This document shows positions 3,263-61,130 of a stretch of DNA of 64,000 bases, piece by piece. The stretch lies in contig NZ_CP031728.1 of the NCBI RefSeq assembly GCF_008806975.1, positions 5,621,501-5,685,500 of the forward strand, given 5' to 3'. Each line of letters begins with the position of its first letter. Position 1 is the first letter of the stretch. The position numbers were made by a program, and so were the translations under genes. Source of the DNA: Cellvibrio sp. KY-GH-1. Its GTDB lineage: Bacteria > Pseudomonadota > Gammaproteobacteria > Pseudomonadales > Cellvibrionaceae. The notes beneath the pieces are model-generated. The model was not told where the DNA came from. It saw only the letters and a program-made list of their open reading frames with translations, and ran no database searches.

Positions 3263-5488
<2,226 letters not shown>

Positions 5489-5520
5489 GCAAAGTTCAGC
5501 CTTAGTCGGATTGCTCTACA

Positions 5521-5557
5521 AAAAGCCTCTGGTGGAAACACGAGAGGCTTTTTTTTG
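5521..5557 (+). terminator. Intrinsic terminator of icd
   Basis: A 10-bp perfect stem AAAAGCCTCT / AGAGGCTTTT (5522-5531 and 5544-5553) with a 12-nt loop ends in eight T residues. It lies 32 bp after the icd stop codon and can also act on the opposite strand behind cspD because of the leading A run. Confidence 0.93.
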
Positions 5558-5583
5558 CATATTAATTACGTTGAGGCGCTATT

Positions 5584-5835
5584 TCACGCAGGAATAGGGT
5601 TTGTTCGTTCGCTAAATTGCGGGCTGGCATTGGCTGGTGCAGAGATATTGACTGCGTGGAGCCCTTTATCCCCTTTAGTTATCTCGAAAGTTACCTGTTG
5701 GCCCGCCTTGAGGGTCTTATAACCCTCCATGGTTATGGCTGAATAGTGTGCAAATAAGTCCTCACCGCCTTCATCCGCAAGAATAAAGCCGTAACCTTTT
5801 GCGTTATTAAACCATTTGACTGTGCCTGTTGGCAT
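5584..5835 (-). CDS. cspD: Cold-shock domain protein CspD
   Basis: Small single-stranded nucleic-acid-binding protein; CspD in E. coli is a stationary-phase inhibitor of DNA replication. The 83-residue product starts MPTGTVKWFNNAKGYGFI and contains the RNP1-like motif KGYGFI and the RNP2-like motif DLFAHYS, together with TLKAGQQVTFEI. The ATG at 5833-5835 is chosen over a longer frame reaching 5880, because the cold-shock fold begins here and an AAGGA lies 9 bp upstream. Its place next to clpS and clpA is conserved across gammaproteobacteria, which supports cspD over other csp paralogues. Confidence 0.9.
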   Translation of the reverse strand: MPTGTVKWFNNAKGYGFILADEGGEDLFAHYSAITMEGYKTLKAGQQVTFEITKGDKGLHAVNISAPANASPQFSERTNPIPA

Positions 5836-6189
5836 GATTTGGAATCCTTCTGCCCGAGTGATGCCCTTGAAAAACATCACTGTCGTTATTATTGTCCCAA
5901 GTACTGCAATTGCTCGGGGTCATGGACGAGAGATTTACCTAGAGGGACTAGTGCATTTAACTTATGCTTTTAAGCGGCCAAGTATTTTATTGTTATTTGC
6001 GATAAGTGCCCCAATCTAAGCAAAGTGCCGTATTAATGTGCATCGGCGCTCTTTTTTTATCCAACAATTGACCCAAAGTCAAGCATTTATCCTGTATTTG
6101 CGTCGATTGGGATGGATTAGGGCTTGTTATGCCGATGGGTTACAATACGTTTAAACATCCAATCATTTTTTATTTTGTATTAAATCTCT
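5836..6189. other. 354-bp divergent intergenic region between cspD and clpS
   Basis: No convincing protein gene is present. It must hold the leftward cspD promoter and the rightward clpS promoter, but I could not assign -35/-10 boxes with confidence. A terminator-like hairpin on the + strand (6024-6058) splits the region. A 67-codon frame at 5816-6019 partly overlaps cspD antisense and has no recognisable features. Confidence 0.6.
6024..6058 (+). terminator. Terminator-like hairpin upstream of clpS
   Basis: AGTGCCG (6024-6030) pairs with CGGCGCT (6044-6050, one G-T pair), followed by C and seven T residues. No + strand gene precedes it, so it would end either an unannotated small transcript or a leader of clpS. 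Confidence 0.45.
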
Positions 6190-6561
6190 ATGGGCAATCT
6201 CCACAAGCTTCAACTAACCTTAGGTAAAGATGATGACAATTCTGCCGATGAATCGGATGGCGGTCTTGCTGTAGTAACATCAAAACCCAAGTTAAAGCGG
6301 CCACCTATGTACAAGGTGGTATTACTGAATGATGACTACACACCCATGGATTTCGTGGTGGAAATTTTGGAAGTGTTTTTTTCCATGTCGCGCGAAAAAG
6401 CTACCCATGTGATGTTAACGGTACATGTTCACGGCAAAGCAGTTTGTGGTATCTATACTCGTGATATTGCTGAAACTAAAGCGGCGCAAGTGAATCAATA
6501 TGCAAGAGAGAATCAACATCCGCTGTTATGTGAAATTGAAGCGGTTGAAGATGAGCAGTAA
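6190..6561 (+). CDS. clpS: ATP-dependent Clp protease adaptor ClpS
   Basis: ClpS is the N-recognin of the bacterial N-degron pathway. It binds proteins with N-terminal Leu, Phe, Trp or Tyr and delivers them to ClpA-ClpP. The 123-residue protein has a variable acidic N-terminal ~35 residues, which in this family enters the ClpA pore. The folded domain follows: [20 protein letters not shown] (the substrate-pocket segment), then [33 protein letters not shown]. Length and motifs are standard. It is followed after 44 bp by clpA, as in most gammaproteobacteria, so co-transcription is likely. Confidence 0.96.
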
Positions 6562-6605
6562 GTCGTAAAGAAGTTATTTTTGTTGGTTAGAAGAGGGTAG
6601 GCGCA

Positions 6606-8903
6606 ATGTTAAGTAAAGATCTGGAAGTAACCTTAAATCTTGCTTTCAAAGGTGCGCGCTCCAAGCGACACGAATTCATGACCGTTGAGCATTTGTTACT
6701 CGCGCTCATCGATAATGATTCGGCGGCAAATGTATTACGCGCTTGCGGTGCTGATTTAATTAGTTTACGCAAAGAATTAATCGAGTTTGTCGATTCCACC
6801 ACTCCACTTATCCCTGAAAATGACAGCGAGCGTGAAACCCAGCCAACACTCGGGTTCCAGCGCGTACTGCAACGCGCAGTATTCCATGTTCAATCTTCCG
6901 GCAAACAAGAAGTTACTGGTGCAAATGTATTGGTGGCTATCTTTAGTGAGCAAGAAAGCCAGGCCGTTTATTACCTGAAACAACAAAGCATTGCCCGAAT
7001 AGATGTGGTCAACTTCATCACTCACGGTATTCACAAAGTGGCTGGCAATAATGATCACAGCAGTGATCATCACCATAATTCGCAAGAAGGGCAGGACGAG
7101 GAATCTGCTACAGGCGAATCCGCCGCACAAAGTCCGTTGGAAAATTTTGCTACCAATCTCAATGAAGCAGCGATGCAAGGGCGGATCGATCCGTTAGTGG
7201 GGCGCGAGTTTGAGGTGGAGCGCGTTTGCCAGATTCTCTCTCGCCGCCGTAAAAACAACCCTTTGCTGGTTGGGGAGTCGGGTGTAGGAAAAACGGCGAT
7301 TGCAGAGGGGTTGGCCAAACGTATCGTTGATGGTGATGTTCCTGAATCCCTGGCAGACAGCATTGTATTTTCGTTGGATATGGGGGCTTTGTTAGCTGGG
7401 ACCAAGTATCGTGGCGACTTCGAAAAGCGTTTCAAAAGCTTGTTAAATGAACTGAAGAAGCAAAAAAATTCGATTTTATTTATCGATGAAATTCATACCA
7501 TTATTGGTGCCGGTGCTGCATCGGGCGGTGTGATGGATGCCTCTAACTTGTTGAAACCATTGCTATCATCCGGCGAAATTCGCTGTATGGGCTCCACGAC
7601 CTATCAGGAATTCCGCGGAATTTTTGATAAAGATCGTGCGCTCTCTCGCCGCTTCCAGAAGGTGGATGTGAATGAGCCAACAGTCGATGAAACCTATCAG
7701 ATTCTCAAAGGGCTTAAGAGCCGTTTTGAAAAGCATCACAACTTGCGTTACACCGATGCCGCTTTGCGTGCAGCCGCGGAACTGGCCGAGCGCTATATCA
7801 ATGACCGTTTCTTACCGGACAAGGCGATTGATGTAATTGATGAAGCAGGGGCGTACCAACAATTGCTTGCGCCAAGCAAACGTAAGAAAACGATTGGTGT
7901 TACTGATGTAGAAAATGTGGTTGCCAAAATTGCGCGCATACCTCCAAAAAGTGTGTCTTCTTCTGATAAAGAGCAATTGCGCAAACTTGATCAGAATTTG
8001 AAGATGACTGTGTTTGGCCAGGATGAGGCAATTGACACCTTGGCCACAGCCATCAAATTGTCACGAGCAGGGCTGGGTTCGGCAGAAAAGCCAATTGGCT
8101 CCTTCCTGTTTGCTGGTCCTACGGGCGTAGGTAAAACGGAAGTTTGTCGTCAACTTGCTAAATGCATGGGGATGGAGTTGGTACGCTTTGATATGTCTGA
8201 ATATATGGAGCGTCACACGGTATCGCGCTTGATTGGTGCGCCTCCTGGTTATGTGGGGTTTGATCAGGGTGGATTGTTAACGGATGCAATCACCAAGCAA
8301 CCGCACTGCGTTTTGTTGCTGGATGAGATTGAGAAGGCGCATCCAGAGGTTTTCAACTTGCTGTTGCAGGTTATGGATCACGGCACCCTTACTGACAACA
8401 ATGGGCGCAAGGCGGATTTCCGCAACGTAATTTTGATTATGACTACTAACGCCGGTGCGGAGGTGATGAGTCGTGCCTCGATAGGTTTCACTCATCAGGA
8501 TCACGCTACTGACGGTATGGAAGCTATCAAGAAAATGTTTACGCCTGAATTCCGCAACCGTCTGGATGCGATTGTGCAGTTTGCTTCTCTGACGTTGAAT
8601 ACCATTAAAACTGTGGTTGACAAGTTCCTGATGGAGTTACAGACCCAGCTGGATGATAAGCATGTCACTCTGGAAATTAGTGATGAAGCTCGTGAGTGGC
8701 TGGCGATTCATGGTTATGATGTGAAAATGGGAGCCCGCCCAATGGCTCGCTTAATTCAAGACAAGCTTAAAAAGCCCCTGGCGGAGGAGATCCTTTTCGG
8801 AACCTTATCTAGTGGTGGTGGAACAGTAGATGTAGATGTTGATCCGATAGAGGATAAAATCACTATCGAGGTCAAAGCCAAGCAGGCTGCGCAGCCAGCC
8901 TGA
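6606..8903 (+). CDS. clpA: ATP-dependent Clp protease ATP-binding subunit ClpA
   Basis: AAA+ unfoldase that pairs with the ClpP peptidase and degrades N-degron and ssrA-tagged proteins. The 765 residues contain an N-terminal Clp-N double repeat (about 1-145), an acidic and His-rich linker, a first AAA+ domain with Walker A GESGVGKT starting at G223, and a second AAA+ domain with Walker A GPTGVGKT starting at G504. SIGFTHQD near residue 625 matches the IGF/IGL loop that docks on ClpP. No large coiled-coil middle domain is present, which separates it from ClpB. The gene starts with ATG after GAGGGTAGGCGCA. clpP is not in this window. Confidence 0.96.
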   Translation: MLSKDLEVTLNLAFKGARSKRHEFMTVEHLLLALIDNDSAANVLRACGADLISLRKELIEFVDSTTPLIPENDSERETQPTLGFQRVLQRAVFHVQSSGKQEVTGANVLVAIFSEQESQAVYYLKQQSIARIDVVNFITHGIHKVAGNNDHSSDHHHNSQEGQDEESATGESAAQSPLENFATNLNEAAMQGRIDPLVGREFEVERVCQILSRRRKNNPLLVGESGVGKTAIAEGLAKRIVDGDVPESLADSIVFSLDMGALLAGTKYRGDFEKRFKSLLNELKKQKNSILFIDEIHTIIGAGAASGGVMDASNLLKPLLSSGEIRCMGSTTYQEFRGIFDKDRALSRRFQKVDVNEPTVDETYQILKGLKSRFEKHHNLRYTDAALRAAAELAERYINDRFLPDKAIDVIDEAGAYQQLLAPSKRKKTIGVTDVENVVAKIARIPPKSVSSSDKEQLRKLDQNLKMTVFGQDEAIDTLATAIKLSRAGLGSAEKPIGSFLFAGPTGVGKTEVCRQLAKCMGMELVRFDMSEYMERHTVSRLIGAPPGYVGFDQGGLLTDAITKQPHCVLLLDEIEKAHPEVFNLLLQVMDHGTLTDNNGRKADFRNVILIMTTNAGAEVMSRASIGFTHQDHATDGMEAIKKMFTPEFRNRLDAIVQFASLTLNTIKTVVDKFLMELQTQLDDKHVTLEISDEAREWLAIHGYDVKMGARPMARLIQDKLKKPLAEEILFGTLSSGGGTVDVDVDPIEDKITIEVKAKQAAQPA

Positions 8904-53469: not shown

Positions 53470-53685
53470 ATTGGTCGCGGTATTTTATTGCAGGCGTCGG
53501 ACCCACCGTCATCCTATTAATGTCTTGGGGAGGTGCAGGCTGTCCAGAGTGTCCAAACGTATGGGGCCCGCGCTACAAAAACTGACTTGCAGGGGCCGGC
53601 TGTGTTACCTATCATCCACGGCCAGTTGAGTCCCTGTTATAGCGCTGGATCAATGTTTGGTATCGGCGCAGCAAGTCGAGTTGAT

Positions 53686-56600
53686 ATGTCTAATCCCTGG
53701 TCAAGTTACAAGCAATCCGTTACCCAGGTAATGGGGCGCGATTATCACAAGTTGGTTCGCCGATTAAGCGAGATCGAAAAGCTCGCGCGTGCCGAGAAGC
53801 CTTTTGATCAAGCGCTGGAAAAATGGCAACAACAGCTTGCGCATTCGCAAGCCGAAGTTATGCGCCGTCAAGAGCTTGTTCCTGCTGATATTGAATTCCC
53901 TGCGTTACCGGTGTGCGAAAAGCGTGAAGAGATTGCGCAAATTATTGCCGCTAATCAGGTGGTAGTGCTCGCCGGTGAAACCGGTTCCGGTAAAACGACC
54001 CAGATTCCGAAAATTTGTTTAAGTATTGGTCGCGGTGTTAAGGGCTTGATCGGTCACACCCAGCCGCGCCGAATTGCCGCCAATACTGTTGCCAATCGCA
54101 TCGCCGAAGAATTAAAAACCACACTCGGTGAAAAGGTGGGTTATCAGGTCAGGTTCAGTGATCAATCCAATGAAAACACCCTGATCAAGGTGATGACCGA
54201 TGGTATTTTGTTGGCAGAAATCCAGCATGATCCGTTTTTAAATAAGTACGATACGCTGATTATCGACGAAGCCCATGAGCGCAGTCTGAATATCGATTTT
54301 CTACTCGGCTATTTAAAGCAGCTGTTGGCCAAGCGCCCGGATTTAAAATTAATTATCACCTCGGCCACTATCGATCTGGAGCGCTTCTCGCAGCATTTTA
54401 ACAATGCGCCGATTATCGAAGTCTCCGGTCGCACCTATCCGGTGGATGTCTGGTATCGCCCGCTCTACGAATTTGAAAACAGTGAGGGTGAAGATGCCGA
54501 GCCGGATCAATATGCGGCGATTGTCGATGCGGTGCGCGAAATCGAGCTGCATGAAAAAACCGGTTCGGGTGTGCGCGGTGGCGATATCCTGGTGTTTTTA
54601 AGTGGTGAGCGCGAAATTCGCGAAGCCGCCGATGCGTTGCGCAAAGCCCAATTTGCCCATATGGAAGTCATTCCGTTTTACGCGCGTCTGAGTTTGGCGG
54701 AGCAACAAAAAGTGTTTGCGCCTCACACCGGCCGCCGTATTGTATTGGCTACCAACGTAGCCGAAACCTCGATCACCGTACCGGGTATTCGCTATGTCAT
54801 TGACCCGGGGTTTGCGCGTATCAGTCGCTACTCCTATCGCACTAAAGTGCAGCGCTTGCCGATAGAGCCGGTTTCGCAGGCGAGCGCGAATCAGCGCAAG
54901 GGTCGCTGCGGGCGTGTGGCGGAAGGTATTTGTATTCGCTTGTACAGCGAGGACGATTTTAAGTCCCGCCCTGAGTTTACCGATGCTGAAATTCTGCGCA
55001 CCAACCTTGCCGCCGTAATTTTACAAATGCTGCAATTGCGCATGGGCGATATTCATAAATTCCCATTTATTGATGCACCTGATCATCGCCTGATTAGCGA
55101 TGGGTTTAAATTGCTGGAAGAGCTGCACGCGGTTAACAGCAAAAACCAGTTAACGCCGGTGGGCCAGCAGTTGGCCAAACTGCCGTTGGACCCGCGCCTG
55201 GCGCGCATGATGTTGGCGGCGCAGGAGCAATCCTGTATTCGCGAGCTATTAATCATTGTTAGCGCGTTGTCGGTGCAGGACCCGCGCGAACGGCCGGTGG
55301 AAAAGCAACAGGCCGCTGATCAAATGCATCGCCGTTTTTGGTCCGAGCATTCGGATTTCCTTGGTTATGTCAGCCTGTGGGATTATTTTGAAACCCAGCG
55401 TCAGGAACTCTCACAAAATCAGCTGCGCAAACTCTGCAAAAAAGAATTTCTATCTTACTTGCGTTTGCGCGAATGGCGCGATGTGCACCACCAGTTGTGC
55501 GTGGCGATAAAGGATTTGGGTTTTCGCATTAATAGCGAGCCTGCGAATTACGAATCTATTCATAAAGCGCTTCTGACCGGCTTGTTGGGAAATTTGGGAT
55601 TCAATCACGAAGAGCGTGAATATTTAGGGGCGCGTAATCGCAAATTTGCGATTTTCCCCGGCTCGTCGCTAGCGAAGAAAACGCCCAAGTGGATGATGGC
55701 GGCAGAGTTAATTGAAACCTCCAAATTATTTGCGCACACAGTAGCGAAAATTGAACCTGAGTGGGTGATTGGTGCAGCAGAGCATTTGATCAAGCGGCAA
55801 CATTTCGAACCTCATTATGACTCGCGCGCAGGCCAGGTAATGGCCTACGAAAAAATTACGCTTTATGGTTTAACGATTGTTGAGAAAAAATCGGTTAACT
55901 ACAGCCATATAGATGCAGCGCAAGCGCGAGAAGTATTTATTCGCGCAGCCTTGGTGGAAGGCCAGTACGCGCAGCACCCCAAGCGCAAACATTTGCAGCA
56001 GCAAGCAGGCTTCACGGATTTTTATACGCATCAACAGCAATTGTTACTGCAGTTGGAAGCGTTGGAAGCAAAGTCTCGCCGGCGCGATATAGTGGTGGAT
56101 GAACAGGTTATTTTTGATTTTTATAACGATCGAATTCCATCTGATGTGGTAAATCTCGCCGGGTTTGAATCCTGGCGAAAAAAAGCGGAGCAAACCAACC
56201 CGCAATTGCTGTATATCACGCGAGAAACATTAATGCGGCACGGTGCGGGTGAGATCACCGAAGCGCAATTCCCCAATGAGCTGGAATGGCGTGGCATGGT
56301 GTTTCCGCTGAGTTATCATTTTGAACCCAAGCATGCATTTGATGGTGTGAGTATCCACGTACCTATGAGCGTCCTCCATCAAGTGCCCGAGCAGCGGCTC
56401 GAATGGTTAGTACCGGGTATGTTGCGCGATAAATGCATCGGCTTGATTAAATCCCTGCCTAAAAACCTGCGCAAACATTTTGTACCTGTGCCGGATTTGG
56501 TGGATAAATTGTTGGCTGTAATTACGCCTGACAATAAACCGCTCAGCGAAGCCATGGGGGTACAATTAAAACGCCTTACGGGCGTGGATATTCCGAAAGA

Positions 56601-57648
56601 AGCCTGGTTGGAAACCAATGTGGATGATTACTATCGCTTTAATATCCATGTAGTAGATGACAAAGGCAAAGTAATTGCGAGTGGCCGCGAGTTGAATCCG
56701 CTACGCGAAAAGTATCGTGAAAAAGTGCAGCAAAATATCCAGTCGGCAGCAACCGATATTGAACGCGATGGTATTACTGCCTGGGATTTTGATGAACTGC
56801 CACAGGCTATACAGTTGCCACGTGGTGGAATCAGTATTCGTGCTTATCCCGCACTGGTGGATAAAAATTCCAGTGTGGCCTTGCAGGTGCTGGATAATCC
56901 TTTGCAAGCCTTGGATTTTACTCAACGCGGCTTAACACGCTTAACGTATTTATCCCTTGGGCAAACTGTTAAATATTTACACAAAGAATTATTAAAAGGG
57001 CAGGAGGTTGCGCTGACCTTGGCAGGAATTGGCAGCCGTGATCAGGTGGTTGATGATTTAATTATGGCAGCTATCAAACAACTAGCTTTTGCCGATCAAC
57101 AGCAATTGCCGCGCGAAAAATCGTTGTTTGAGTCTTTATTGCAAACGATCAAAGATAAATTAATTTCCCACGCGCAAGAGCTGGCGAATCAATTAATTAC
57201 CAGTTTGAAACTGTTGGTCGAGATTAAAAAGCAGCTTAAACAACAAAAAAATATGTTGGTGCTCGCGTATACCATTGGTGACATCAATCAACAGCTGGCG
57301 CAGCTCTATTACCCTGGTTTGGTATACAAGACACCGTCGCAATGGTTGCAGCAGTATCCCAAATATATGCGCGGCATCCAGCAACGGCTGGAGAAGGCGG
57401 CGTTAAATTCCCAGAAAGATAAGTTGCAGCTGGCAGAGGTCGCACCGCATTGGCAGCGCCTCGCAGATTATCTGGCGAAGGAAGGTGATTATCGCCTTGG
57501 GCAGTTGTCGGAGCTGATGGAATACCGTTGGTGGGTGGAAGAACTGCGCATCTCCTTATTCGCCCAGACCTTGAAGACCCAGGTGCCAGTATCCGACAAA
57601 CGCTTGGATAAGCAGTGGGAGCAAGCTCTTTTACAAGCCCAAGGGTAG
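53686..57648 (+). CDS. hrpA: ATP-dependent RNA helicase HrpA
   Basis: DEAH-box helicase that rescues stalled or collided ribosomes and affects mRNA processing in E. coli. The 1320-residue protein has Walker A GETGSGKTT from G97, then HTQPRRIAA, the DEAH box DEAHERS from D194, SATID and the helicase motif QRKGRCGRV. The HA2/OB-fold region and the long HrpA-specific C-terminal domain (about residues 670-1320) complete it. Length compares well with E. coli HrpA (1300). The frame is open 51 codons further upstream, but the match to the family starts near MSNPWSSYKQSV at 53686, which I take as the start, though its RBS is weak. Confidence 0.93.
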   Translation: MSNPWSSYKQSVTQVMGRDYHKLVRRLSEIEKLARAEKPFDQALEKWQQQLAHSQAEVMRRQELVPADIEFPALPVCEKREEIAQIIAANQVVVLAGETGSGKTTQIPKICLSIGRGVKGLIGHTQPRRIAANTVANRIAEELKTTLGEKVGYQVRFSDQSNENTLIKVMTDGILLAEIQHDPFLNKYDTLIIDEAHERSLNIDFLLGYLKQLLAKRPDLKLIITSATIDLERFSQHFNNAPIIEVSGRTYPVDVWYRPLYEFENSEGEDAEPDQYAAIVDAVREIELHEKTGSGVRGGDILVFLSGEREIREAADALRKAQFAHMEVIPFYARLSLAEQQKVFAPHTGRRIVLATNVAETSITVPGIRYVIDPGFARISRYSYRTKVQRLPIEPVSQASANQRKGRCGRVAEGICIRLYSEDDFKSRPEFTDAEILRTNLAAVILQMLQLRMGDIHKFPFIDAPDHRLISDGFKLLEELHAVNSKNQLTPVGQQLAKLPLDPRLARMMLAAQEQSCIRELLIIVSALSVQDPRERPVEKQQAADQMHRRFWSEHSDFLGYVSLWDYFETQRQELSQNQLRKLCKKEFLSYLRLREWRDVHHQLCVAIKDLGFRINSEPANYESIHKALLTGLLGNLGFNHEEREYLGARNRKFAIFPGSSLAKKTPKWMMAAELIETSKLFAHTVAKIEPEWVIGAAEHLIKRQHFEPHYDSRAGQVMAYEKITLYGLTIVEKKSVNYSHIDAAQAREVFIRAALVEGQYAQHPKRKHLQQQAGFTDFYTHQQQLLLQLEALEAKSRRRDIVVDEQVIFDFYNDRIPSDVVNLAGFESWRKKAEQTNPQLLYITRETLMRHGAGEITEAQFPNELEWRGMVFPLSYHFEPKHAFDGVSIHVPMSVLHQVPEQRLEWLVPGMLRDKCIGLIKSLPKNLRKHFVPVPDLVDKLLAVITPDNKPLSEAMGVQLKRLTGVDIPKEAWLETNVDDYYRFNIHVVDDKGKVIASGRELNPLREKYREKVQQNIQSAATDIERDGITAWDFDELPQAIQLPRGGISIRAYPALVDKNSSVALQVLDNPLQALDFTQRGLTRLTYLSLGQTVKYLHKELLKGQEVALTLAGIGSRDQVVDDLIMAAIKQLAFADQQQLPREKSLFESLLQTIKDKLISHAQELANQLITSLKLLVEIKKQLKQQKNMLVLAYTIGDINQQLAQLYYPGLVYKTPSQWLQQYPKYMRGIQQRLEKAALNSQKDKLQLAEVAPHWQRLADYLAKEGDYRLGQLSELMEYRWWVEELRISLFAQTLKTQVPVSDKRLDKQWEQALLQAQG

Positions 57649-57706
57649 CCAATAGCCGGCGAAAAATTAGGCTGAGATAAATAATAGGGTAAATATGTGT
57701 TGGTGT

Positions 57707-57737
57707 TGTAACAAAGTCAAATGAGGCTAGTCTATAA
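57707..57737 (+). promoter_or_regulatory. Candidate ECF-sigma-type promoter of the hvf operon
   Basis: TGTAAC (57707-57712) is spaced by 17 bp from GTCTATAA (57730-57737). This resembles ECF-sigma promoters (TGTAAC / GTCTA type). It lies about 160 bp before the hvfA-like gene. No ECF sigma gene is in the window. Confidence 0.35.
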
Positions 57738-57897
57738 GTCACCAACAGCGAACTGGGCGAGGGTAGGTGTGGCAAGCTTGTGAGCAAGGCCCAGCTATTT
57801 AGTAGGTAATGCGGTTAATATCAGTTTGCTTTAGTGGTACAAAAATCCGATGACATTTTCTATCACCCTGTAACTATTGAACGAAAGGAGTTTTTCC

Positions 57898-58260
57898 ATG
57901 AATAATAAAATTTCTAACCTGTCCGCAATGATTGGTGCTGCGTTCGTTGCTTCCGCCGCCTTGGCTCCGGTAGCGTCCGCTGCAGATACCACCTTTAGCG
58001 CAACTCAACTGCAAGCAGGTTACACCTTGGCTGATAACAGCGCGACTAAAACTGAAGGCGAACACAAGTGCGGTGAAGCAAAATGCGGCTCCGACAAAAA
58101 AGCTGATGGTGAGCATAAGTGCGGCGAAGCCAAGTGCGGCGCTGATAAAAAAGCTGAAGGTGAACACAAGTGCGGCGCTGATAAAAAGGCAGAAGGCGAG
58201 CATAAGTGTGGTGAAGCTAAATGCGGCGCCGATAAAAAAGAAGAGAAAAAAGCTGAGTAA
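57898..58260 (+). CDS. hvfA: HvfA-type RiPP precursor with seven E-x-K-C-G motifs
   Basis: Secreted precursor peptide of 120 residues, predicted substrate of the downstream MNIO enzyme. A signal peptide (ISNLSAMIGAAFVASAALAPVASA, cut near residue 29) is followed by a cysteine-free linker and a Lys/Glu-rich region of four repeats. All seven cysteines lie in EHKCG or EAKCG, variants of the EGKCG motif that HvfB of Haemophilus influenzae converts to oxazolone-thioamide pairs binding copper (family knowledge). The third repeat lacks five residues and has one motif only. AAAGGAG lies 7 bp before the ATG. The stop is 5 bp from hvfB. An unmodified metallothionein-like role is the alternative. Confidence 0.85.
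   Translation: MNNKISNLSAMIGAAFVASAALAPVASAADTTFSATQLQAGYTLADNSATKTEGEHKCGEAKCGSDKKADGEHKCGEAKCGADKKAEGEHKCGADKKAEGEHKCGEAKCGADKKEEKKAE
58063..58239 (+). repeat. Tandem 51-bp repeats in the precursor gene
   Basis: Four units begin at 58063, 58114, 58165 and 58201. Units 1 and 2 are 51 bp (17 codons), unit 3 is 36 bp with an in-frame 15-bp loss, and unit 4 is partial (39 bp). Each starts CA(C/T)AAGTG and encodes HKCG. Synonymous differences between units show that the repeat is not brand new. Confidence 0.92.
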
Positions 58261-58265
58261 TCTTT

Positions 58266-59105
58266 ATGGCTGATGCAGCTGGCAATTATTCAGCAGCTGT
58301 TTCCGGTGCAGGCCTTGGCTTGCGCCGGACGCTAATGAAAACCTTGGCAGATTTGAACACTAGCGATATTCAGTTTATGGAGGTTGCTCCAGAAAACTGG
58401 ATTCAGGTTGGCGGCCGTTTAGCAAAACAGTTGCGGGCCTACACAGAGCGTTTTCCTTTTGTCTGCCATGGATTATCCCTTTCTATCGGTTCCCCCGCAC
58501 CCTTAAACACTGACCTCTTGCATTCGATCAAACAATTAATGCGTGAGCACGGTATTCGCTATTACAGTGAGCATCTGAGCTATTGCAGTGATCAGGGCCA
58601 GTTATACGATTTGTTGCCTATTCCCTTTACTGAAGAAGCCGTTGAATATGTGGCTGAACGCATTTTGCGGGCGCAGGACATTTTAGGGCAGCGCATTGCT
58701 ATCGAAAACTCTTCCTACTATTACGCTCCACAGCAGGAAATGAGTGAAAGCGAATTCATTAATGCCGTGGTGAAAAAGGCCGATTGTGCGCTCTTGCTGG
58801 ATGTAAATAATATTTACGTTAACAGCATCAACCACAAGTATGATCCCTATGAGTTTCTTGCCAGTCTTCCCGGTGAGCGCACGGCTTACGTACATATCGC
58901 CGGGCATTATGAAGAGGCGGAAGATTTGCGCGTAGACACTCACGGTGCACCGGTGATTCATCCGGTGTGGCAATTGTTGGAAAAAACCTACGACTTATTT
59001 GGCGTGAAACCAACACTGTTGGAGCGCGATTTTAATATCCCGCCGCTGCCTGAATTGTTGGCAGAACTCAATGAAATTAAAATTCGCCAGCAGAGTGTCT
59101 TATGA
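58266..59105 (+). CDS. hvfB: MNIO-family (DUF692) multinuclear iron oxidase, HvfB-like
   Basis: Multinuclear non-heme iron-dependent oxidative enzyme, in the family of MbnB, TglH and BufB, which use iron and O2 to modify cysteine residues in peptides. The 279-residue TIM-barrel protein shows the expected ligand set: H68 in FVCHGLSLS, E102 and H103 in YYSEHLSYC, E147 and N148 in IAIENSSYY, D179 and N181-N182 in LLDVNNIYVNS, H210 and H214 in VHIAGHY, D224 and H226 in VDTHGAPVIH, and E253 in LLERDFN. GLGLRR near the N-terminus is typical. It begins 5 bp after hvfA and overlaps hvfC by 4 bp, so the three are one operon. It acts in the cytoplasm before export of the precursor (inference). Confidence 0.92.
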   Translation: MADAAGNYSAAVSGAGLGLRRTLMKTLADLNTSDIQFMEVAPENWIQVGGRLAKQLRAYTERFPFVCHGLSLSIGSPAPLNTDLLHSIKQLMREHGIRYYSEHLSYCSDQGQLYDLLPIPFTEEAVEYVAERILRAQDILGQRIAIENSSYYYAPQQEMSESEFINAVVKKADCALLLDVNNIYVNSINHKYDPYEFLASLPGERTAYVHIAGHYEEAEDLRVDTHGAPVIHPVWQLLEKTYDLFGVKPTLLERDFNIPPLPELLAELNEIKIRQQSVL

Positions 59106-59842
59106 AAAGTTTCCAACACACTCAACTGGAGCTCGCGCGTTATTTGCGATCACCGGAAGCGAGCCCGGCGCCCATGCAAGTGGAAGAACGTCGTTTGCAT
59201 ATTTATCGCGATTTGATTTACAACAATATTGAGAATTTTATTGCTAATGTATTTCCTGTTACTCGCTCAATTCTAACGGATGATGCATGGCACAGATTAA
59301 TCCGCAGCTTTATCGCACATCACTATTGCCAGACTCCCTATTTTTTACAGCTCAGTGACGAGTTTGTGCAATATTTGCTGCAGGAGCGTGGACTGCAGGA
59401 AGGCGACCCTGAGTATTTACTGGAGTTGGTACATTACGAATGGATTGAGCTGGCATTGGATGTAAGTACTGAGGTCATTCCCGAGGCGGGTGTCTGGCCA
59501 AAGGATCTTGATGACTCTCGCCCGCGAGTCTCACCAGTGGCGGTCTGCCTCAGTTACCAAAACCCGGTACAGAAAGTCTCTGCGACCCACGCCAATTTGA
59601 CGCCGGAAGTAACACATTTGTTGGTTTACCGTAATCGCAATGACAAGGTTTGTTTTGTTGCAGCTAATCCACTGACAGCGCGCTTGTTGTTTTTATTGCA
59701 ATCGGTTGATCAACCTTTAATCGCTCAACTGCAAACCATTGCCCGAGAGTTACAGCATTCCGATTTTGATTTGCTTAAAAAACAGGCAGTTTTGTTGTTG
59801 GAAGGTCTTTATAAAGATAGCGTTATCAGTCATTTTGAGTAA
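59102..59842 (+). CDS. hvfC: DUF2063 partner protein, HvfC-like
   Basis: Partner of the MNIO enzyme, thought to bring the precursor peptide to it. The 246-residue protein begins with a DUF2063 domain (FQHTQLELARYLR, then RRLHIYRDLIYNNIENFIANVFPV and HRLIRSFIAHHYCQTPYFLQLSDEF). The C-terminal half is a less conserved mixed domain, with TPEVTHLLVYRNRNDKVCFV. The start ATG overlaps the hvfB stop (ATGA), so translation is coupled. In other species a DoxX-like gene (hvfD) follows; here the next gene is an unrelated porin, 298 bp away, with inverted repeats between. Confidence 0.9.
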   Translation: MKSFQHTQLELARYLRSPEASPAPMQVEERRLHIYRDLIYNNIENFIANVFPVTRSILTDDAWHRLIRSFIAHHYCQTPYFLQLSDEFVQYLLQERGLQEGDPEYLLELVHYEWIELALDVSTEVIPEAGVWPKDLDDSRPRVSPVAVCLSYQNPVQKVSATHANLTPEVTHLLVYRNRNDKVCFVAANPLTARLLFLLQSVDQPLIAQLQTIARELQHSDFDLLKKQAVLLLEGLYKDSVISHFE

Positions 59843-60140: not shown

Positions 60141-61130
60141 ATGAAAAAAACATTATTAGCCGTGACCCTCGCTTCTCTGTTCCCGCTGGCAGCTGTTGCT
60201 GACGTAGTCGTATACGGTAAAGCCAACGTTTCCCTGCAAAGCACCGACGAAGCTAGTTATTCAACTGCTAACGGCAATCAGGCTGATGGCAGCAAAGTAG
60301 AGTTACTGAGCAACGCTTCGCGCATCGGTGTAAAGGGTGGTGAAGAAGTTAATTCGAAGTTGAAAGTGATTTACCAGTTTGAATACCAAACTGAAGTGGA
60401 TGACGGTACCAACGGTTCACAAACTTTCGGCCAACGTAATATTTTTCTGGGTCTGCAAGGTGTAGCTGGTACCATTATGGGCGGTCACTTTGATACCCCA
60501 ACTAAAGTTGCTCAGGAAAAAATTGACCTGTTCAATGATCTGGAAGGCGATATTACCAACATCTTCAAAGGTGAAAACCGCGTAAGCAACATCGTGCAAT
60601 ACGTAACCCCAACTTTCGGCGGTTTCGCAATTGCTGCTGCCTACACCTCTGAAGAAAACGACGGTACCTTCAAACAAGCGGGTACTCCAACCAATGGCGC
60701 GTCTGTATCTTTCAGCTATACCAGCCCGGTATTCTACGGGGCTATCGCAACTGATCAGGACGTAGAAGCTGATGGTATTAGCCTGGTTCGCGCTGTCGCT
60801 CGTTTGACTTTGGGCCCTGTGCAATTAGGTGCGTTGGCTGAGCAATACGAAAACGACAATACCGGCTACGATGAAGACGGTGCGTTGGTTTCTATCCTCT
60901 GGAACCTGACCGACAAGTGGGCCGTAAAAGGTCAATTTGGTGACTCTGACGTAAGATGGATCGATGGCGAAGCCGCGAGCGTTGGTGTGGATTACAAAAT
61001 GACCAAAAATGCCACTTTGTACGGTTACTTCACTTCAGTTGAAAATGGCATGAATGACGCTACTGAACCAACTGTTGACACCTATCGTGATGATACTTAC
61101 GGTGGTGTTGGTGTGGATTTCAAATTCTAA
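60141..61130 (+). CDS. General outer-membrane porin (OmpC/gram-negative porin type)
   Basis: Trimeric 16-strand diffusion porin. The 329-residue protein has a signal peptide (MKKTLLAVTLASLFPLAAVA, cut before DVVVYGKANVSL). The alternating beta pattern runs throughout, with SRIGVKGGEEVNSKLKVIYQFEYQ and RNIFLGLQGVAGTIMGGHFDTP typical of the family's first strands and loop L3 (DLFNDLEGD). It ends in the terminal Phe of GVGVDFKF. AAGGAG lies 8 bp before the ATG. The length and even codon choice suggest high expression. Substrate selectivity cannot be inferred. It may or may not be read with the preceding hvf operon. Confidence 0.92.
   Translation: MKKTLLAVTLASLFPLAAVADVVVYGKANVSLQSTDEASYSTANGNQADGSKVELLSNASRIGVKGGEEVNSKLKVIYQFEYQTEVDDGTNGSQTFGQRNIFLGLQGVAGTIMGGHFDTPTKVAQEKIDLFNDLEGDITNIFKGENRVSNIVQYVTPTFGGFAIAAAYTSEENDGTFKQAGTPTNGASVSFSYTSPVFYGAIATDQDVEADGISLVRAVARLTLGPVQLGALAEQYENDNTGYDEDGALVSILWNLTDKWAVKGQFGDSDVRWIDGEAASVGVDYKMTKNATLYGYFTSVENGMNDATEPTVDTYRDDTYGGVGVDFKF

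Follow-up and report, generated by a model that had tools for sequence, protein, structure and literature searches.

What does a three-gene operon do that joins a secreted precursor with seven cysteines to an MNIO oxidase and a DUF2063 partner, and does it work alone? In this work, we have addressed both questions for Cellvibrio sp. KY-GH-1, where the operon occupies the forward strand of the window, by which we mean the whole 64,000-nucleotide stretch of DNA analysed and to which coordinates refer unless a contig is named. The best explanation, to which we give a probability of roughly 0.8, is that the operon would be an hvfABC copper-peptide system served by HvfX, a sigma factor and an anti-sigma factor encoded in trans, under one promoter, in a chromosomal slot that can be swapped with a BufA2 operon.

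The operon and its precursor

The first gene, hvfA (57898..58260), codes for a secreted precursor of 120 aa with seven E[H/A]KCG motifs, hvfB (58266..59105) for an MNIO (DUF692) peptide-modifying oxidase of 279 aa, and hvfC (59102..59842) for a DUF2063 partner (PME type 1) of 246 aa. The initial annotation, made from the letters alone, had reported this tight packing, and its coordinates, the 5-bp gap between hvfA and hvfB and the 4-bp overlap between hvfB and hvfC are confirmed. It had also named the locus an HvfABC/bufferin-type RiPP operon, with a DUF692 oxidase, a DUF2063 partner and an HvfA-like precursor. The first half of that name stands, since all three proteins score above their NCBIfam cut-offs: the precursor on NF050137, the model of the repeated KCG-E-x-KCG (75.3 bits, cut-off 19.5), the oxidase on the HvfB-family model NF003818 (437.4 bits, cut-off 360) and the partner on the HvfC/PME type 1 model NF050145 (252.9 bits, cut-off 142). 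The oxidase also matches PF05114 (350 bits) and the partner PF09836 and PF22106; no Pfam match of the precursor was found, and the narrower HvfA equivalog NF050188 was not reached (34.8 of 95 bits). The second half of the name does not stand: HvfB scores 271.3 bits on the BufB model NF050167 (cut-off 310), and the operon falls in the EGKCG/oxazolin branch, outside the bufferins proper. Relatives of HvfA with 64-83% identity are present in 13 of the 20 other genomes of the genus.

The nearest PDB entries are 3BWW for HvfB (E 5e-75) and 3DEE for HvfC (E 5e-14). Aligned by eye, the conserved His, Glu and Asp blocks of HvfB match those of 3BWW and MbnB, and R20-R21 and D255-F256 correspond, by motif only, to Arg15-Arg16 and Asp249-Phe250 of FonB, of which the arginines are described as reading the Glu at position 1 and Asp249 as the proposed catalytic base (PMC13097082).

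The precursor starts with a Sec-type signal peptide (57898..57981; inspection of the translation, with an AxA near residue 28 judged by eye), which would double as the leader by analogy with HvfA (PMC13419390). All seven cysteines had been placed in E-x-K-C-G motifs, and so they are: the core (58060..58227) consists of EHKCG-EAKCG twice, EHKCG alone and EHKCG-EAKCG once more, in the order HA, HA, H, HA. The extra His pointed out at the first Cys of a pair precedes it in each of the three pairs, and the unpaired fifth motif has a His before its Cys as well. Shuffling the core 20,000 times gave at most two E-x-KCG per sequence, versus the seven observed. The codons used for His (CAC/CAT) and Gly (GGT/GGC) vary from repeat to repeat, which are therefore not identical copies of recent origin.

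Which modification would these cysteines carry? The oxazolone/thioamide pairs suggested at the outset have been superseded, as 5-thiooxazole is the present assignment for the product of Haemophilus (PMC13097082, PMC13419390). By analogy with the characterised relatives, the seven HvfA cysteines are predicted to become 5-thiooxazoles, a conversion that costs 4 Da per Cys (captophorin literature, PMC13097082, PMC13419390). The number of sites has a precedent, as fontiphorin has seven also (PMC13097082). Oxazolin, fontiphorin and bulbicupramide belong to this known family, the 'captophorins' (PMC13097082, PMC12538549, PMC13419390), and the captophorin literature counts about 2,000 EGKCG proteins. 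Judged from its sequence, the operon is the Cellvibrio form of this known EGKCG/oxazolin-type captophorin system, and an ordinary member by predicted chemistry.

The histidine of the first motif

EHKCG is no peculiarity of this locus: EHKCGE[AG]KC[GA] occurs in 53 stretches of our genome collection (some from one and the same genome), 45 of them outside Cellvibrio. Among the 53 are 8 from Cellvibrio, 30 from Bacteroidota, 13 from other Proteobacteria and 1 from Melainabacteria. We rejected uniqueness on these grounds, and the recurrence in other species and phyla makes EHKCG a recurring sub-variant. The fetched stretch contains an MNIO at 37 of the 53 loci, several stretches ending early; among the other 16, a few resemble unrelated lipoproteins. 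At these loci His occupies 84 of the 144 motifs that come first or stand singly and 3 of the 150 second motifs, the first-position His being required by the search pattern itself. Precursors were matched in 33 of 57 genomes; among the 30 that were fetched, the first motif is EHKCG in 12 of 14 from Cellvibrio (the exceptions being L016 and L017) and in 0 of 16 from outside it. The string 'EHKCG' was not found in the literature searched, which lay largely outside subscription journals.

Could this histidine define a distinct metal-binding variant, its imidazole, placed two residues ahead of the first thiooxazole of each cassette, completing a site of mixed N/S type and altering metal choice? The proposal draws on the best 120 of 1237 homologues, 50 of which have His at position 2 of a motif, with a distribution of 80/296 in first-of-pair, 0/328 in second and 12/137 in single motifs, and on the presence of the cassette also in Bacteroidota and other Gammaproteobacteria. 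Since among the homologues listed His stands before the first or lone Cys and never the second, a role in HvfA metal binding is possible. Against a distinct variant, these homologues were picked by likeness to a query that itself bears His at the first position, so the bias is partly one of ascertainment; FonBC accepted every tested non-Pro residue at position 2 (PMC13097082), which indicates that the enzyme needs no special residue there; and L016 and L017, precursors of the same genus and the same slot, do without EHKCG. On balance we consider the distinct variant doubtful. In the precursors P0110 and P0052 the His is found in DHKCG or EHNCG motifs, so its position tolerates different neighbours.

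HvfX and its putative regulators in trans

The DoxX-like fourth gene had been reported as missing. This holds for the window, with all three DoxX genes of the genome outside it, and HvfX does not adjoin hvfABC as in a four-gene hvfABCX operon. It does not hold for the genome, which codes for a true HvfX at G000:C1:465260-465772 (NF050144, 241.9 bits, cut-off 80), about 0.55 Mb from hvfABC if the chromosome is circular, and we dropped the claim of absence on this score and on the promoter pattern common to hvfA and hvfX (see below). The other two DoxX genes score 57 and 74 bits on the same model; the one with 57 of the 80 bits belongs to a bufferin operon (L037) and was rejected as the hvf partner.

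Downstream of hvfX come an ECF sigma gene and then a zinc-finger anti-sigma gene (NF052368, PF13490), whose product, with Cys4 and His30-x3-Cys34-x2-Cys37, has the residues of a ZAS anti-sigma factor; Neisseria MseR has Cys and His at the same positions (PMC2893595). The sigma gene adjoins HvfX in all 8 Cellvibrio loci read, and the coordinates place the two side by side in each of the 12 Cellvibrio genomes where HvfX exceeds its cut-off; BLAST detected the anti-sigma gene in 6 of the 8 loci read. In other genera HvfX can directly follow hvfC (L111, L112, L114, L121, L122), stand solitary (L123, L126, L127) or lie behind a bufferin-type MNIO (L124). One cluster, L113 (G045:C5:55000-64000), contains hvfA, hvfB, an ECF sigma gene, an anti-sigma gene and a divergent HvfX, and is a possible intermediate between the linked and the split arrangements.

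HvfB and HvfX occur together across 57 genomes (both in 27, HvfB only in 7, HvfX only in 2, neither in 21; Fisher p 9e-8, relatedness not corrected), and inside the genus p is 0.006. The two HvfX-only genomes, G027 and G056, both carry hvfA; HvfB had no match in the former and matched only in three separate pieces in the latter. The sigma factor (E at most 1e-40) is present in 18 of 21 Cellvibrio genomes. The three that lack it (G014, G015 and G018) have hvfABC without sigma, HvfX or promoter, which means that the operon can live without these. The slot precursor of one of them, G015 (L167, 6705-7079, minus strand), is divergent, with CAEGRCAEGKC-type repeats.

A predicted promoter common to hvfA and hvfX

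When the regions upstream of hvfA from 14 Cellvibrio loci were aligned, one conserved element, TGTAACAAA plus TCTA at a fixed spacing, stood out from otherwise variable sequence in 12 of them; it is absent from G014 and G018. In KY-GH-1 this element is the predicted ECF-type promoter of hvfABC (57707..57736, forward strand), with TGTAACAAA as the -35 and GTCTATA as the -10, a prediction that draws on conservation and on whole-genome pattern searches. The pattern TGTAACRA-N16-TCTAY, built from the hvfA upstream regions alone, has exactly two matches in the 5.76-Mb genome, one at hvfA (window 57707) and one about 40 bp upstream of hvfX, versus 0 for the reversed pattern used as a control. Across the 21 Cellvibrio genomes there are 31 matches, namely 12 at hvfA, 11 at hvfX, 4 at bufA2, 1 at a sigma gene, 1 at a secreted MsrAB and 2 unexplained (G017:C149 and G006:C237), versus 8 for the reversed control. 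The hvfX promoter of G012 matches only with one mismatch.

Promoter and sigma factor go together. A strict match is found in 16 of the 18 genomes with the sigma factor and in 0 of the 3 without it (p 0.0075), and in the 15 genomes with hvfABC in the slot the figures are 12/12 and 0/3. In G003 and G020, which have the sigma factor and no strict match, near matches lie at bufA2, with the strict last base differing. Upstream of precursors in other genera the promoter was found at 0 of 18 loci, L026 having it with one base more spacing, and in this form it seems limited to Cellvibrio. No hvf-type promoter was found at the other two MNIO loci of KY-GH-1, and a search of the 5΄ leader (57600-58000) for RNA elements gave no Rfam match at E up to 1. 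In one genome the promoter seen at hvfA also precedes the gene of a secreted fusion of MsrA, thioredoxin and MsrB (L201, G010:C98, 191-1456, minus strand); in Neisseria and Haemophilus, MsrAB is known as the other target (PMC2893595, PMC7907618).

Does the three-gene operon nevertheless work alone, like mmrABC of Microbulbifer, the distant HvfX-sigma operon being unrelated? That mmrA becomes modified in E. coli when mmrB and mmrC are expressed alongside it (PMC12538549) would agree with this, as would the three hvfABC genomes without HvfX and sigma. We nonetheless regard it as improbable, because the whole-genome promoter search matched only at hvfA and hvfX, HvfB and HvfX co-occur within the genus, and the promoter is gone exactly where the sigma factor is gone.

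An exchangeable slot beside hrpA

The operon is bordered on the left by a gene that, from its sequence, we take to be an hrpA-like helicase (53533..57648, forward strand), and on the right by a porin (60141..61130, forward strand; PF13609, 114 bits), neither being part of the system. The helicase gene flanks the slot in every one of the 21 Cellvibrio genomes and the porin in 18; in G003 an MlaA-like gene stands in for the porin, and in G012 and G015 the right border is different. Fifteen genomes have hvfABC in the slot and six (G003, G005, G006, G009, G017 and G020) an inverted bufC-doxX-bufB-bufA2. BLAST missed the hvfA of G012, G014 and G015 and the bufA2 of G017 in this survey, and all four precursors were identified separately. 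Each of the six buf-slot genomes has a BufA2 above the 60-bit cut-off (86.1, 79.6, 84.5, 89.2, 82.9 and 86.2), and the slot MNIO of G005 is a BufB (384.5 bits, cut-off 310). All six retain the sigma factor, which is therefore not exclusive to hvf, and HvfX is above cut-off in none. One of them, G009, has an extra hvfB-like gene elsewhere, without the promoter.

Which occupant came first? The hvf genes adjoin hrpA also in the 5 other genera read (L052-L056), which suggests that hvf is probably the ancestral content. In the HrpA tree the five bufA2 genomes included group together (fork support 89/88, not starred); G003 and G002 are not in this tree, as the stretches fetched from them yielded no HrpA frame longer than 1200 aa. 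We lean towards a scheme in which one sigma factor and one promoter would drive a single interchangeable slot. Its ancestral content would be an EGKCG captophorin, with HvfX encoded elsewhere in the genome, and one lineage would have BufA2 there together with its own DoxX. The two kinds of peptide, oxazolin-type and bufferin, would then have equivalent functions in one and the same stress response.

KY-GH-1 itself has two more MNIO loci. One (L037, G000:C1:2353000-2366000, 6004-8458) is a complete DUF2282 bufferin operon with precursor, MNIO, partner and DoxX, without the hvf-type promoter. The other (L038, G000:C1:4934000-4946500, 5208-7322, minus strand) codes for an MNIO and a putative precursor of 127 aa that bears a signal of the twin-arginine type (TIGR01409, 19.2 bits); the partner encoded there is 215 aa long and has no NCBIfam or Pfam match. 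Export through the Tat route would be unusual for the substrate of an MNIO. The length of this partner equals that of the Cellvibrio sp. KY-GH-1 type-2 partner (PMC12452194).

Discussion

We propose that the di-iron MNIO HvfB would be presented with the precursor by HvfC, an RRE-type partner, and would convert up to seven E-x-K-Cys-G cysteines to 5-thiooxazoles prior to Sec export, and that the mature HvfA peptide would sequester Cu(I) in the periplasm under oxidative or metal stress of the envelope. That the precursor is instead an unmodified, unstructured metal- or acid-responsive repeat protein is very improbable, since its weak Asr acid-shock match (16.8 bits, cut-off 50) is set against a tight operon with MNIO and partner kept across the genus, and catalytic and substrate-reading residues kept by motif. 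In the copper-peptide reading that we prefer, the regulon would be split: the second operon, about 0.55 Mb away, would supply HvfX, the ECF sigma factor and its zinc-type anti-sigma factor, and the sigma factor would fire both operons through the common promoter TGTAACAA-N16-TCTA. One Cellvibrio lineage would have had its slot refilled by a BufA2 operon with its own DoxX, losing hvfX and keeping sigma and promoter. The inducer is uncertain, as the mmr proteins of Microbulbifer were undetected even with CuSO4 (PMC12538549) and neither peroxide nor diamide nor singlet oxygen elicited a response of sigma-E in meningococci (PMC2893595).

The captophorin family, the 5-thiooxazole assignment, the seven sites and three-gene operons are known already. 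What is new, as far as genome sequences tell, is the split, swappable architecture with HvfX in trans and a shared promoter; it was not found in the literature searched, which took in few of the subscription journals, and the available text of PMC12452194 names a Cellvibrio partner protein and not the split arrangement. With an oxazolin-type operon naturally exchanged for a bufferin operon at a single address and behind one promoter, whether both do the same job can be tested directly by cross-complementation. If they do, oxazolin-type peptides and bufferins would be equivalents in one stress response and not separate systems. Surveys confined to neighbouring genes will also report HvfX or its sigma factor as 'missing' where these are encoded in trans.

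How does the Cellvibrio system compare with those already known? Microbulbifer mmrABC, which makes bulbicupramide, likewise has three genes and five to eight cysteines in EGKCG-type units (PMC12538549); its motif is EGKCG, whereas Cellvibrio has EHKCG/EAKCG, and the available text reports neither a trans-encoded HvfX nor a shared promoter. Fontimonas fonABC, the fontiphorin operon, is alike in its seven sites, its EAKCG and EGKCG motifs and an MNIO with paired Arg and Asp-Phe; unlike Cellvibrio HvfA, the fontiphorin fragment SGEAKCGEGKCGEK, which is a fragment of FonA only, has no His (PMC13097082).

The predicted regulation has its counterparts in Neisseria and Haemophilus. The Neisseria sigma-E promoter, GTMAGBWTT and CGTCTAAH, resembles that of Cellvibrio, and the sigma-E regulon includes msrAB, which in Cellvibrio we see behind the promoter in one genome; NMB2140-2145, with sigma-E and MseR, form one operon, whereas Cellvibrio has two (PMC2893595). 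By gene numbers, the gonococcal counterpart of NMB2140-2145 would be the gonophorin operon. In H. influenzae, msrAB and a DoxX/COG3767/COG3220/DUF2063 cluster are under the control of RpoE2 during exposure to hypochlorite (PMC7907618), and from its gene content we infer that this cluster is the hvf operon. The hvfABCX system of this species, which makes oxazolin, shares with Cellvibrio an HvfA-type precursor, HvfB and HvfC (PMC13419390, PMC7907618), although the Cellvibrio precursor lies under the HvfA equivalog cut-off. HvfX is inside the operon in Haemophilus and in trans in Cellvibrio, and the control of the cluster by an ECF sigma factor and a ZAS-related anti-sigma factor described there (PMC7907618) is predicted here. 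A further comparison is within the genus: the BufA2 (Cys-Lys) bufferin operons of six Cellvibrio genomes differ in their precursor (NF050166), their MNIO subfamily (BufB, as scored in G005) and a DoxX within the operon, and they sit in the same slot behind the same promoter, strict in four genomes and with the last base off in two.
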